The translations under genes and the position numbers were made by a program. The notes beneath the pieces were generated by a model. That model did no database searches and had not been told where the DNA came from. It saw only the letters and a program-made list of their open reading frames with translations. A DNA stretch of 64,000 bases from Leucobacter chromiireducens. Its GTDB lineage: Bacteria; Actinomycetota; Actinomycetes; Actinomycetales; Microbacteriaceae. The DNA is taken from the NCBI RefSeq assembly GCF_003917135.1, contig NZ_RPDI01000002.1, positions 1 through 64,000 on the forward strand. The letters run 5' to 3'. Below, piece after piece: positions 15,973 to 51,166 of this stretch (positions within the stretch are counted from its first letter, which is position 1; every line of letters begins with the position of its first letter).

Positions 15973-17463
15973 ATGACCTCACTCGCCACCCCGCTCGCGC
16001 CCACAGCCGGCCTCGACGCCGAGCCCGAGGACGGGGGAGACGCGCTCACGCTCGGCCGCCGCGTGCGCGAGCGCCGCACCGAGCGCGGCATGACGCTCGA
16101 GCAGCTCGCCGCGGCGGTCGACCGTGCGCCCTCGCAGCTCTCCGCGATCGAGAACGGCAAGCGCGAGCCCCGGCTGCCGCTGCTCCGCGCGCTCGCCGCA
16201 GCGCTCGGGGTGACCGTTGATGAGCTGCTCATCGACGAGGCGCCGAGCGAGCGCGCGGCGCTCGAGATCGCGGTGGAGCGCGCGCAGCGCGGCACTGTGT
16301 TCGGGTCGCTCGGGATCCAGCCGATCCGCGTGTCGAAGGCCACGAGCGACGAGACGCTGAAGGCGATTCTGGGGCTGCACCAGGAGGTCGAGCGGCTGCA
16401 CCGTGAGCGAGCTGCGACCCCCGAGGAAGCGCGCCGCGCGAACACCGAGCTCCGCGCCGAGATGCGCGTCGCGGGCAACTACTACCCCGAGCTGGAGCGC
16501 GCGGCGTCCCAGTTGCTCGACAGCGTCGGCTACACGGGCGGCCCCGTGTCCCAGCAGACGACCTCGAGCGTCGCGGAGAAGCTCGGCTTCAGCCTGCACT
16601 ACGTCTCGAACATGCCGCACTCGACGCGCTCGGTGATCGACCGTCGGAACGGGCGTATCTACCTGAGTAGCAACCTCCCGTCGCGTGACGCGCGTGCGCC
16701 GATCCTGCGCGCGCTCGCGAGCCTCGTGTGCGGGCACGAGGAGCCGCGGAGCTACGGCGATTTCCTGCGGCAGCGCGTCGAGGCGAACTACCTGGCCGGC
16801 GCGGTGCTGCTGCCGGAGGAGGCGGCCGTCGAGCACCTCGCCGCCGCGAAGAAGCAGCGCCAGATCTCGATGGAGGATCTGCGCGATGCGTTCGGGGTGT
16901 CCTACGAGATGGCGGCGCACCGCTTCACGAACCTCGCGACCGAGCGGCTCGGCCTGCAGGTGCACTTCATGAAGGCGCACGAGTCCGGCACGTTGATCAA
17001 GGCCTACGAGAACGACGGCGTGCGGTTCCCGTCCGACGCGCTCGGCAACTTCGAGGGCGCGATGGTGTGCCGCAACTGGACGGCGCGCACGATCTTCAGC
17101 CAGCCGGATCGCTTCAACCCCTGGTACCAGTACACGGATATGGCTGCGGGGGGCACGTACTGGTGCACTTCGCGCGTCGAGAAGGCGAAGGAGGGCCTGT
17201 ACTCGGTGAGCGTCGGGGTGCGCTTCGAGGACGTGAAGTGGTTCCGTGGCCGCGAGACGCCGCATCGCTCACAGTCGTTCTGCCCGGACGATCGGTGCTG
17301 CCGGCAGGCGTCGACCGAGCTCACCGCGAAGTGGGAGGCTGCCGCGTGGCCGGAGGCCGCGACGCCGACGAGCCTGCTCGCCGCGCTCCCGACCGGCACG
17401 TTCCCCGGCGTCGATTCGAACGAGGTCTACGCATTCCTTGAGCAGAATGAGCGCAACTCATAG
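15973..17463 (+). CDS. ramB: RamB-like transcriptional regulator of acetate/glyoxylate metabolism
   Basis: A 496-residue DNA-binding regulator of the RamB/ScfR type. An XRE-family helix-turn-helix occupies about 28-80 (MTLEQLAAAVDRAPSQLSAI, NGKREPRLPLLRALA). An IrrE/ImmA-like middle domain lacks the HEXXH metalloprotease motif; the LASLVCGHEE and EANYLAGAVLLPEEA segments stand there instead. A conserved cysteine-rich CPDDRCCR lies at 437-444. In corynebacteria and mycobacteria RamB controls glyoxylate-shunt genes in response to acetate. Divergent placement from aceB supports the same role here, but the effector is not evident from the sequence. Confidence 0.82.
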   Translation: MTSLATPLAPTAGLDAEPEDGGDALTLGRRVRERRTERGMTLEQLAAAVDRAPSQLSAIENGKREPRLPLLRALAAALGVTVDELLIDEAPSERAALEIAVERAQRGTVFGSLGIQPIRVSKATSDETLKAILGLHQEVERLHRERAATPEEARRANTELRAEMRVAGNYYPELERAASQLLDSVGYTGGPVSQQTTSSVAEKLGFSLHYVSNMPHSTRSVIDRRNGRIYLSSNLPSRDARAPILRALASLVCGHEEPRSYGDFLRQRVEANYLAGAVLLPEEAAVEHLAAAKKQRQISMEDLRDAFGVSYEMAAHRFTNLATERLGLQVHFMKAHESGTLIKAYENDGVRFPSDALGNFEGAMVCRNWTARTIFSQPDRFNPWYQYTDMAAGGTYWCTSRVEKAKEGLYSVSVGVRFEDVKWFRGRETPHRSQSFCPDDRCCRQASTELTAKWEAAAWPEAATPTSLLAALPTGTFPGVDSNEVYAFLEQNERNS

Positions 17464-47023: not shown

Positions 47024-48114
47024 CTCGCTACCTGCTCGCCGGCGGCGGAACGGCCGGCCACGTGAACCCGCTGCTCGCGCTCGCCGACCTCATCCGCGGC
47101 ACCGAACCCGACGCGGAGATCGTCGTGCTCGGCACCCGCGAGGGGCTCGAAGCGCGCCTCGTCCCCGAGCGGGGCTACGAGCTCGCGACGATCGCGCGCC
47201 TGCCGTTTCCGCGCCGCCCGAACCTCGCCGCGCTGCAGTTCCCCGCGCGCTTCGCGCGCGCCGTGCGCGAGGTGCGCGAGCTCATTCGCGCGCGCAACAT
47301 CGACGTGATCGTCGGCTTCGGCGGGTACGCTGCCGCCCCCGCCTACCGCGCAGGGGCGAAGGAAGGCGTGCCCGTCGTGATCCATGAGGCGAACGCCAGG
47401 CCAGGCATGGCCAACAAGATGGGGGCGCGCCGCACCCCGTACGTCGGCGTCACCTTCGCCGGCACCCCGATCCCGAACGCACGGGTCACCGGGATGCCGC
47501 TGCGGCCCGAGATCGCCGGGCTCGACCGTGCCGCGCTCCGCGCCTCGGCGCGCGAGCACTTCGGCCTCGAGCCCGAGCGACGCACCCTGCTCGTGACGGG
47601 CGGCTCGCTCGGCGCGCGCGCCATCAACCGCGGCATCTCGGGCTCGGCCGCGGAAATCGTCGCGGCCGGCGTGCAGGTGCTCCACGTGTGGGGCGGACTC
47701 ACCGAGGTCGAGGATCCTGGGGTGCCCGGCTACCACGTCATCGAATACTGCGACCGCATGGACCTCGCGTTCGCGGCGTGCGACCTCGCCGTGTCCCGCG
47801 CGGGCTCCACGACCGTGAGCGAGCTCGCTGGGCTCGGGATCCCGGCCGTGTTCGTGCCGTACGCCGTCGGCAACGGCGAGCAGCGCTTCAACGCGGCGGG
47901 CGTCGTCGAGGCCGGTGGGGCGCTCCTCGTCGAGGACGCGGAACTCACGCCGGCGTGGGTGACCGGCACGCTCCTGCCGCTCCTCACCGACGACGAACGG
48001 CTCACCGCGATGGCTGAGCGCTCGCGCAGCGCCGGCAGCCTCGACGGCACCGATCGGCTGCTCGCGCTCGTGCACGAGGCGAGCGGCGCTAGCGGTGCCG
48101 GTGGGAGCCGGTAG
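47020..48114 (+). CDS. murG: UDP-GlcNAc:lipid I N-acetylglucosaminyltransferase
   Basis: Peripheral membrane glycosyltransferase converting lipid I to lipid II; 364 residues of GT family 28. The glycine loop LLAGGGTAGHVNPLLALAD opens the protein. IVGFGGYAAAPAYRAG, VIHEANARPGMANK and VTGGSLGARAINRG follow, and the nucleotide-sugar site SRAGSTTVSELAGLGIP closes the catalytic part. ATG 47020 overlaps the ftsW stop. Its TAG stop forms the first three bases of a probable -10 hexamer for the following leader gene. Confidence 0.95.
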   Translation: MTRYLLAGGGTAGHVNPLLALADLIRGTEPDAEIVVLGTREGLEARLVPERGYELATIARLPFPRRPNLAALQFPARFARAVREVRELIRARNIDVIVGFGGYAAAPAYRAGAKEGVPVVIHEANARPGMANKMGARRTPYVGVTFAGTPIPNARVTGMPLRPEIAGLDRAALRASAREHFGLEPERRTLLVTGGSLGARAINRGISGSAAEIVAAGVQVLHVWGGLTEVEDPGVPGYHVIEYCDRMDLAFAACDLAVSRAGSTTVSELAGLGIPAVFVPYAVGNGEQRFNAAGVVEAGGALLVEDAELTPAWVTGTLLPLLTDDERLTAMAERSRSAGSLDGTDRLLALVHEASGASGAGGSR

Positions 48115-48117
48115 GAT
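48112..48117 (+). promoter_or_regulatory. -10 hexamer overlapping the murG stop
   Basis: TAGGAT contains the murG stop codon and ends 7 nt before the ATG of a 13-codon open frame. That gives a leaderless or near-leaderless transcript starting around 48124-48125. Confidence 0.45.
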
Positions 48118-48124
48118 CATCCCT

Positions 48125-48166
48125 ATGCACGTGCGGCTGCTCCTTCGGAGCCGCGGCGGGGCCTGA
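48125..48166 (+). CDS. putative leader peptide (13 residues)
   Basis: A 13-residue frame reading MHVRLLLRSRGGA. It has three consecutive leucine codons (CTG, CTC, CTT) flanked by arginine codons (CGG, CGG, CGC), and it ends inside the hairpin region that precedes an MFS gene. It has no ribosome-binding site but sits right behind a -10 hexamer. The layout (leaderless short frame, competing stems, transporter gene) is that of ribosome-mediated attenuation, with the sensed amino acid or drug unknown. Translation of this frame is inference. Confidence 0.45.
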   Translation: MHVRLLLRSRGGA

Positions 48167-48189
48167 GCCGACCGGCTCCCCGTCCGCGG
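48147..48189 (+). promoter_or_regulatory. candidate attenuator with mutually exclusive stems
   Basis: CGGCTCC (48173-48179) can pair either with GGAGCCG inside the leader frame (48147-48153) or, through CGGCTC, with GAGCCG at its stop codon (48165-48170). The second pairing can be extended outward by CCGCGG (48151-48156) with CCGCGG (48184-48189). There is no T-run, so control would be Rho-dependent or translational. Confidence 0.45.
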
Positions 48190-48233
48190 CGGCTTCGTCG
48201 TGCCGGTCTCCGCTCATTCTTTGGAGTTTCCGC

Positions 48234-49478
48234 ATGCACGTTCCCGTCCGACTCTGGGCGATGCTCGCCGTCATGGTGCTGGCGCAGGCCGCCACCACGA
48301 TCGTCGCTGCCGCGCCGGCATTCCTCATCCCGCACCTCCACGCCGGGGGCCTCAGCCTCGCGGAGGCCGGGCTGCTCGCCGGTGCCCCGAACCTCGGGCT
48401 CGTCGCGGCGCTCGTGCTGTGGGGCGCCGCGACCGACCGCTTCGGTGAGCGCCGGGTGCTCATCGTTGGCCTCGCGGCGACCGCGCTGACGGTCGCGCTG
48501 GCGATGATCGCCGCGGCGCCGATCGGGGAAGGCGCGGGATCCGGCTCCGGCGCCGGCTCCGGCATCGGCGGGCTCCTGCCGCTCGCGGTCGCGCTGGTGG
48601 CCTGCGGCGCGGCCTCCGCGTGCACGAACAGCGCGAGCGGGCGGCTGATCACCGGCTGGTTCCCCGCCGAGCGGCGCGGGTTCGCGATGGGCATCAGGCA
48701 GACCTGCCAGCCGCTCGGCATGGCGATCGCAGCCCTCGGTGTGCCGCCGCTCGCCGCTGGGCTGGGCGTTGCCGCGGCGCTCGCGCTCGGCGGCGTCCTC
48801 GTGCTCGTGAGCCTAGCCGCGGTGTTCGCGGTCGTGCACGATCCCGAACGGGCGCCGCGCCGGGGGAGCGCCACCGCGCAGCTGCCGGCCGCCGCGGCGA
48901 ACCCGTACCGCTCGGGGTGGACGCTCACGCGCATCCACGCGGCCTCCGTGCTGCTCGTGGTCCCGCAGTTCGCGCTGTCCACGTTCGGGCTCGTGTGGTT
49001 CACGGTCGGCTTCGGGTGGAGCGCACTCGCGGCTGGCGCGCTCGTCGCCGGTGCGCAGTTCGCCGGGGCGGCGGGGCGGATCCTGGTGGGCGTGTGGAGC
49101 GACCGGGCCGGCTCGCGCCTGCGGCCGCTCCGTCTCGTTGCGTTCGCCGGAATCGCGACGCTGCTCCTCGCCGCCGCGTGCGGCTGGTTCGAGTGGGGCG
49201 TGCCCGCGGCGGTGGCGTACGTGATCGCGTGCTGCGTGAGCGTCGCCGACAACGGCCTCGCGTTCACCGCGGTCGCCGAGCTCGCAGGCCCGTCCTGGGC
49301 GGGCCGCGCGCTCGGCATCCAGAACACCGGCCAGTTCCTCGCGGCGGCGGCGGTCGGGCCCGTGGTGGGCGGCGTGATCGGCCTCTTCGGTGTCCCCGCG
49401 ACCCTCGCGCTGATCGCGCTGACCCCGGCGCTCGCCGTCCCGCTGGTCCCGCCGCCCGCGGCGGAGCGCCCGGCATAG
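48234..49478 (+). CDS. MFS transporter inserted in the dcw cluster
   Basis: A 414-residue, about 12-helix major facilitator. The DRFGERR loop between helices 2 and 3 matches the family's D-R-x-GRR motif, and [14 protein letters not shown] marks the equivalent loop in the second half. A Gly/Ser-rich loop ([16 protein letters not shown]) lies near 100-115. TTGGAG stands 8 nt before the ATG. It separates murG from murC, which are adjacent in most actinobacteria. Base composition and codon use look like the neighbours, and no mobile-element remnant was seen. The leader-peptide and hairpin module before it suggests inducible expression; the substrate is unknown. Confidence 0.85.
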
Positions 49479-49536
49479 CGTCCGCCCAGCCCCGCTCACC
49501 CCACCCCCCACTCCACCCCGCCCCCGAATCCAGGCG

Positions 49537-49594
49537 GAGAAATCTGATATCTCGGAGCCTTTCGCGCTCACGCGCCCGAGATTTCAGATTTCTC
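49537..49594. terminator. 19-bp hairpin between the MFS gene and murC
   Basis: GAGAAATCTGATATCTCGG (49537-49555) is the reverse complement of 49576-49594 except for one base, with a 20-nt GC-rich loop. Its A/T-rich stem is out of character for the region. It lies 58 nt after the MFS stop and may end that transcript. Confidence 0.55.
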
Positions 49595-49597
49595 AGT

Positions 49598-49660
49598 GGG
49601 AATTGGTGTGTCCCGTGGGAATCGCGCGGTTTCCCAGGGAATCGCGCGTTCTCCGGGAAA
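49598..49660. promoter_or_regulatory. four phased GGGAA dyads upstream of murC
   Basis: GGGAA occurs at 49598, 49617, 49637 and 49655, with 18-20 bp spacing. The last three are preceded by complementary bases (TCCC-GT-GGGA, TTCCC-A-GGGAA, TTCTCCGGGAA). Two copies extend to GGGAATCGCGCG. A possible -10 TACGCT (49710-49715) lies downstream, so the dyads sit in upstream-activator or operator position. Confidence 0.45.
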
Positions 49661-49741: not shown

Positions 49742-51166
49742 ATGATCTACCCCGATCTCGAACTGACCATCCCCGACGAGCTGGGGAAGGTGCACTTCGT
49801 TGGCATCGGTGGTTCCGGGATGAGCGGGATCGCGCGCATGATGCACCAGGCCGGCGTGACCGTAACCGGGTCCGACCGCAGTGCGAACTACTCGACGGCC
49901 GCGCTCGAAGAGATCGGGATCCCCGTCGCCATCGGCCACGACGCCGCGAACGTCGGCGAGGCGGACACGCTCGTCGTCACCGGCGCGCTGTGGCAGGACA
50001 ACCCCGAGTACCAGCGCGCGCTCGCCACGGGGATGCCCGTGCTGCACCGCTCGCAGGCCCTCGCCTGGCTGGCGCGCGGCAAGCGCGTCGTCTCGGTCGC
50101 CGGCGCGCACGGCAAGACGACCTCCACCGGGATGATCGTCACCGGCCTGCTCGGCGCCGGCGCCGACCCGTCGTTCGTGAACGGCGGCATCATCGAGTCG
50201 CTCGGCGTGAGCTCCGGTCCCGGCAGCGACGACCTCTTCGTGATCGAGGCCGACGAGTCCGACAAGTCGTTCCTGCTGTACGACACGGCGATCGCGCTCA
50301 TCACGAACGTCGATCCCGAGCACCTGGACTTCTACGGTTCGCGCGAGGCGTTCATGCAGGCGTTCGTTGACTTCGCCCGCGGCGCGCGCGAGCAGATTGT
50401 CATCTCGGCCGACGATCCCGGTGCGCTCGAGGTGCTCGCCGCGCTCCGCGCCGACGGCGCCCAGGCGCACGCCCCGATCCGCACCTTCGGCGAGGCCGAG
50501 GACGCCGATGTGCGCATCCTCTCGGTTGATGACTCCGGCCCGGTACGCTTCACCGTCGCACTCGACGGCGCCGAGTACAGTGCGCAGCTCGCGGTGTACG
50601 GGCGCCACAACGCGGTCAACGCGGTGGGCGCGCTCGCCGTGCTGACGGGGCTCGGCTTCGAGCCGGCGGCGGCGCTCGCGGCGATTGCGGAGTTCGGCGG
50701 CACGAAGCGCCGCTTCGAGTTCCATGCCGAGGTCGGCGGCGTCCGCGTCTACGACGACTACGCGCATCACCCCACCGAGGTTGCGGCGCTGCTCGACTCG
50801 GCGCGCGCGGTGGTTGGGGACGGTCGCCTCGTCGCGATCCACCAGCCGCACCTGTTCAGCCGCACGAGCCTGTTCCACCGCGAGTTCGCAGAGGTGCTCG
50901 AGGCCGGCGCGGATCACACGGTTGTGCTCGCGGTCGACGGAGCACGCGAGGATCCCGTCGACGGGGTGACCGGCGCGCTCGTGTCGGGCGACTTCAGTGA
51001 CGCGAGCAAGGTCTCCTACATTGACGATTGGGCGCGCGCGGCCGAGTACCTCGCCGAGTTCGCGCAGCCTGGCGACGTCATGGTCACCATGAGTTGCGGC
51101 ACGGTCTACCAGATCATCCCGCAGGTCGTCGCCGCCCTGCGCGGGCGGTTTGAGGTCGCCGAGTAG
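49742..51166 (+). CDS. murC: UDP-N-acetylmuramate:amino acid ligase
   Basis: Adds the first amino acid of the stem peptide to UDP-MurNAc; 474 residues. [20 protein letters not shown] begins the N-terminal domain, the ATP loop is [13 protein letters not shown], and [16 protein letters not shown] is the MurC hallmark. In B-type peptidoglycan of Microbacteriaceae the first residue is often glycine rather than L-alanine; the sequence alone does not decide this. ATG 49742 follows TAGGAGG. It has its own upstream region because the MFS gene separates it from murG. Confidence 0.95.

Follow-up and report, generated by a model that had tools for sequence, protein, structure and literature searches.

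A gene for an MFS transporter lies between murG and murC in the dcw cluster of Leucobacter chromiireducens, preceded by a very short reading frame with three leucine codons in a row. The question raised by this locus is what such a frame does in front of a transporter gene, and what it may tell about the transporter itself. The stretch of DNA analysed here, hereafter the window, comprises 64,000 nucleotides (contig NZ_RPDI01000002.1, positions 1 to 64,000). A sequence-only reading of it had proposed a previously undescribed module of ribosome-mediated attenuation, in which stalling on the Leu codons, or by a ribosome-targeting drug, would free one of two competing stems and switch on an exporter. 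The reading that we favour, with a probability of about 0.7, is that a LEU element precedes the MFS gene and that leucine starvation induces the transporter, which most likely imports leucine or a source of it.

The visible parts of that first proposal are all in place: a -10 hexamer on the murG stop codon, a leaderless frame of 13 codons with three consecutive Leu codons, and an MFS gene with its own ribosome site (Table 1), with murG ending at 48114 and murC starting at 49742. A consensus scan of positions 47900-48400 returned no -35/-10 promoter pair, the -10 box standing there without a recognisable -35, and no intrinsic terminator consisting of a hairpin and a T run; as no terminator is seen, control is probably exerted at translation initiation. 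The fold of the 112-nt leader has an energy of -57.4 kcal/mol, compared with -47.1 +/- 3.8 for shuffled sequences (z -2.67; 2 of 200 shuffles as low), and in its lowest-energy fold the Shine-Dalgarno (SD) segment GGAGU is paired with GCUCC of the Leu codons. No Rfam model, including the T-box, matched the window at its gathering score, and none of relevance appeared at E up to 10 in 47950-48400. A separate feature lies in the gap between the MFS gene and murC, where positions 49535-49600 form a strong palindrome (-32.7 kcal/mol, z -5.6); a genome search with the segment 49525-49620 gave 49 matches, many of which pair up as both strands of a single site, and the segment is a dispersed REP-like repeat.

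Table 1. Features of the region between murG and murC, in window coordinates.
Feature	Position	Strand	Basis and remarks
-10 box TAGGAT	48112-48117	+	Sequence; begins with the murG stop codon TAG; leaderless start predicted at 48125
Leader peptide frame MHVRLLLRSRGGA, followed by stop	48125-48166	+	ATG 48125, 7 nt past the -10 box; 13 codons
Three Leu codons CTG CTC CTT	48137-48145	+	Inside the leader frame
LEU element core	48137-48208	+	Model R2: 61.3 bits, E 3e-11
P1 5' arm	48150-48161	+	Covariation
P2 (pseudoknot helix) 5' arm GACCGGC	48170-48176	+	Covariation
CGGCTCC, shared stem segment of the sequence-only reading	48173-48179	+	Sequence
P1 3' arm, one bulged base	48178-48190	+	Covariation
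P2 3' arm GCCGGTC	48202-48208	+	Covariation
SD GGAG of the MFS gene	48223-48226	+	Sequence; ahead of the MFS ATG 48234
MFS transporter gene, 414 aa	48234-49478	+	PF07690, E 4.2e-37

Judged by its sequence, the module is a LEU element, the leader peptide with pseudoknot described in front of actinobacterial leuA by Seliverstov et al. in 2005, and the novelty first claimed for it falls away. The Leu-run leader, the pseudoknot and the likeness to leuA and leuC elements are all present. As in the leuA elements (PMC1262725), the CU-rich Leu codons may pair with the SD and there is no obvious terminator; the difference lies in the target, which here is an MFS transporter. The same genome carries such elements before both of its leuA genes and its leuC gene, with the leaders MLFGSLLLSCRDES, MRKRSLLLRRHDGA and MRLRRLLLHSRDGF. 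The first of these, the leuA1 leader, resembles the leuL1 peptide MRFGLLLLSCRGEGL of Streptomyces lividans, which precedes leuA rather than a transporter gene and is likewise transcribed leaderless, with no typical terminator in the account available of it (PMC8079986). Leader peptides of leu genes have also been annotated in Corynebacterium glutamicum and C. diphtheriae, no start site being assignable in the latter.

Two covariance models were used to recognise the element. R1 was trained on alignment A2 (15 rows, 14 distinct), which holds 13 of the 16 MFS copies and two leuA elements; R2 was built from 36 leuA and leuC elements only, with no MFS copy, in order to avoid the circularity of R1. 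The next match of R2 in the window after the element itself reaches 22.6 bits. This model recovers all 16 MFS copies, a copy before another MFS gene in genome G006 and a relic in genome G033, and its scores for the MFS copies resemble those for the leuA and leuC copies. R1 has matches in all 54 Leucobacter genomes, in a list that extends to E of about 0.001 for the genus, and its 14 matches at or above 73 bits are the 14 MFS copies of the genus, as expected from a training set made up mainly of these. The fifth R1 match of the window's genome (16794-16857, minus strand, 28.4 bits) lies inside an opposite-strand frame of 496 aa (15973-17463) and was set aside as a chance match.

Among 54 elements of all kinds, themselves R1 matches and thus invariant partly through selection, 53 have a TAnnnT box 6-7 nt ahead of the leader start, the exception being L006 with TAGGAT at 10 nt; as background, 2 of 540 ATGs in the window have such a box 5-9 nt upstream. 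At three loci (L009, L012 and L018) the element, the MFS gene and murC are present with no murG in the upstream flank, so that the promoter is independent of the murG stop codon. The leaders of the MFS copies in relatives have 13 codons, and the Leu run is kept in them with some losses, L012, L052 and L091 retaining two Leu codons. Four target genes supplied 52 leaders (again R1 matches, their invariance being partly due to selection), and all 52 have CTT as third Leu codon; of the 524 Leu codons in 11 ORFs of the window, CTT accounts for 0.8%. The two helices P1 and P2 interlock to form the pseudoknot, 95.4% of their cells being paired in A2. None of 500 shuffles reached their joint covariation score, while 4 attained the number of pairs changed on both sides and 170 the count of pair types. 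P2 has all seven pairs in 14 of the 15 sequences (three of seven in L031, as aligned). For P1 alone, in a model-fitted alignment of the 54 elements, 88.7% of the cells are paired, and shuffles reached the covariation score in 0, the changes on both sides in 67 and the pair types in 441 of 500 cases.

One of the two competing stems named by the sequence-only reading did not share in this conservation: GGAGCCG:CGGCTCC is complete in 3 of the 15 A2 sequences, the other 12 forming 3 to 6 of the 7 pairs, and was rejected as a general switch. What survives of the proposed attenuation is a Leu-codon leader followed by a conserved structured RNA, the leader, P1 and P2 being kept in relatives; in front of a transporter gene, this combination makes leucine-responsive control through the leader likely.

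The 54 elements precede this MFS gene (16), leuA2 (16), leuA1 (12), leuC (8) and another MFS gene (1), the remaining one being a relic. Those before leuC within the genus are at L071, L073, L074, L077, L079, L081, L083 and L086. The other MFS gene, in G006 (L088, 1300-2688), encodes a different protein of 418 aa, and in that genome the dcw MFS gene has lost its own element. Across the family of the window's genome, R2 matches turn up in 115 of 120 genomes, covering 83 of 85 genera, and the 28 loci examined have leuA (19) or leuC (9) downstream. Named genomes were also scanned with a pattern that was derived from the MFS copies and kept CTT invariant; it hit at least 119 stretches. Among these, the 80 loci listed comprise 71 before leuA (in Amycolatopsis, Nocardia, Frankia and others among those listed), several of these assignments resting on short loci and weak matches (the weakest, L191, at 42 bits), together with 7 before this MFS gene and 2 too short to tell. 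The seven listed MFS loci belong to five Leucobacter, one Microbacteriaceae MAG and Micrococcales bacterium 73-13. The accessible part of the original description (PMC1262725) gives leuA as the site of the element, together with a transposase gene of Bifidobacterium longum that contains a copy. Our literature search, mostly without full texts, found no LEU element before a transporter or leuC and no leucine attenuation in Leucobacter; as far as the literature searched shows, the transporter is a new target.

The protein is a member of the MFS, and its family and fold tell little about what it carries. Its structure model has a mean pLDDT of 80.5, no NCBIfam family, for efflux or otherwise, matches it at the cut-off, and a sequence search of the PDB gave eight weak partial matches, to SV2A/SV2B. 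Foldseek and VIA-align matches mix importers (FLVCR, DgoT, OxlT, MCT1) and exporters (NorA, SotB, MdfA) at similar scores, so that neither substrate nor direction is given by the fold and family searches (PF07690, NCBIfam, PDB, Foldseek). The switch that it has in common with leuA and leuC points instead to a role in leucine supply, and the import of leucine or of a source of it, such as a keto acid or a peptide, is most likely. The T-box-controlled transporters are a precedent for such a deduction of the substrate from an RNA regulator, since the amino acid specificity of the RNA predicts what is transported, and their elements likewise move semi-independently of genes (PMC2494555); T-boxes differ in that they read tRNA directly and occur mainly in Firmicutes, and the window element has no Rfam match. 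A leaderless leader peptide ahead of an import system is also known from metL of metNIQ in S. lividans, which concerns methionine and has another leader, the available part of that report making no mention of a LEU pseudoknot (PMC8079986).

A common switch with leuA and leuC would suit either direction of transport, and exporters are among the fold matches. The transporter might thus expel a product made at leucine shortage, such as an intermediate of the pathway or a branched-chain compound present in excess. We regard this as unlikely, since genes induced by amino acid shortage usually serve synthesis or uptake, as the T-box-controlled amino acid transporters illustrate (PMC2494555), and importers match the fold at similar scores.

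The regulation of a leucine-responsive importer could proceed as follows. The promoter on the murG stop codon would give a leaderless transcript starting at the leader AUG, and ribosomes would translate the 13-codon peptide with its Leu run. The RNA behind the leader would fold into stem P1 and the pseudoknot helix P2, and as long as it is free it would conceal the SD of the MFS gene. A shortage of charged Leu-tRNA would keep ribosomes longer on the Leu codons and change the fold, and the transporter would be made in step with leuA and leuC. In this scheme the response would be to leucine, and control probably acts on translation and not on transcription, with room left for a Rho-dependent stop.

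Nested folds, computed without the pseudoknot for 15 of 16 MFS, 15 of 16 leuA2, 8 of 12 leuA1 and 8 of 8 leuC copies, fit this scheme in part. In the free RNA, mean SD accessibility is 0.16 for MFS copies, 0.22 for leuA2, 0.19 for leuA1 and 0.21 for leuC. A ribosome placed at the first Leu codon raises it to 0.49, 0.62 and 0.67 for leuA2, leuA1 and leuC, respectively, so that the modelled folding fits an opening of the SD for the leu genes. The MFS copies rise little, from a mean of 0.16 to 0.25 (n=15), and in the window copy the SD stays shut (0.00 to 0.01). The SD opens to a similar degree (0.24 to 0.59; MFS copies 0.24) when the ribosome is at the stop codon; the nested folds therefore show neither an SD opening in the window copy nor a difference between fed and starved states. 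Pairing between the Leu run and the SD is weakly preferred in the 48 of 54 elements for which an SD was found (-8.08 with the element's own partner vs -7.57 with shuffled partners; 30/2000). An alternative pairing of the P2 3' arm with a GACCGG that overlaps the SD can be seen in L006, L009, L010 and L012 and, with a G-U pair, in L016-L018. It was rejected as a general mechanism: only 1 of 15 MFS copies reaches a level found in at most 5% of shuffles, the mean z is -0.34, and the pairing is missing from the window copy (z +1.47).

The SD release in the window that these folds leave unexplained would be no obstacle if the pseudoknot were the binding site of a regulatory protein, the translation of the leader being incidental. 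This is the proposal of Seliverstov et al., who cite S. coelicolor mutants against classical attenuation, favour a protein on the strength of these mutants and of phyletic patterns, and name the co-occurrence of LEU elements with orthologs of ML1624, the proposed regulator (PMC1262725). The conservation of P1 and P2 agrees with it. However, nearly all copies also keep the Leu-run frame and the leaderless -10 spacing, features that a site for protein binding alone could do without, and we consider this account quite improbable compared with control by ribosomes on the leader.

The history of the gene and its element can be followed within the genus and beyond it. A protein search found matches to the MFS at E 0.001 or better in 33 of 54 Leucobacter genomes; 30 loci were taken, 24 of which have murG and/or murC in their 1.5-kb flanks (both in 19). 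The element stands in front of 13 of these 24 dcw-located genes and is absent from 11. In all, it precedes the MFS gene in 14 of the 54 Leucobacter genomes, as well as in two that belong to a second genus. In the fourteenth Leucobacter genome, G047, an internal TAA breaks the MFS frame (L052, G047 C4:39992-41260), which follows a leader with two Leu codons. In a tree of 59 MFS proteins, the 24 dcw genes and the two of the second genus are grouped with 100/100 support. Both second-genus genes carry the element among other neighbours: the one at L091 is flanked by proB and proA, obg adjoining proB (family models), and L092 looks alike on the proB-obg side (by eye). Orthologs at L093, L095 and L103 were also seen beside proB-, obg- or proA-like frames, as judged from their start residues. 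The dcw position, which the sequence-only reading took as part of the module's meaning, is thus incidental, in line with the loci that have no murG upstream. Since both branches of the deepest split in this group contain the element, the simplest account is that it was gained once, before the move to the dcw cluster, and lost about five times (counted by eye: L005, L008, L013, L015, and L014 with L019-L024).

In G033, a relic of the element with a GTG start and a decayed P2 lies directly ahead of murC, with no MFS gene (L063 1501-1573; C3:217503-217575). This relic, the broken copy of G047 and the 11 bare dcw orthologs would be expected if the element before the MFS gene were a decaying remnant without function. 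That account is very doubtful, given that P1 and P2 are intact in the window and its relatives, that the model score is on par with the leuA and leuC copies, and that the element travelled with the gene to another locus. A drug exporter induced by ribosome-targeting drugs that stall ribosomes on the leader, for which the leader-controlled macrolide efflux gene mef offers a parallel (PMC4335068), is barely credible for a protein below every NCBIfam cut-off, encoded behind an element common to leuA and leuC, the other known targets of the elements examined being leucine biosynthesis genes except for the one MFS gene of G006.

Outside the group that carries the element, distant orthologs of the transporter often have a TGGTATACCA-like palindrome upstream, recognised by eye at L095, L097-L099, L102-L105, L107, L109-L114 and L116-L119. 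GntR/FCD regulators are neighbours of the two such orthologs tested, L105 and L117, and the palindromes look like the operator of a GntR-type regulator. It is an even bet that an MFS gene with a GntR-like operator elsewhere was rewired in Leucobacter and the second genus, being drawn into the LEU-element regulon as an importer dedicated to leucine or a source of it, and that gene and switch moved together between proBA and the dcw cluster.

The LEU element, described before leuA, is found here also ahead of leuC and of a transporter gene. Its natural gains and losses, the relic and the relocation provide material for settling how it works. Relatives of the transporter at E 1e-60 or better occur in 36 of 85 genera and in 89 of the 299 genomes searched in the family and, if the reading of a leucine-responsive importer is true, the LEU element would name a testable substrate for this uncharacterised orphan MFS family.
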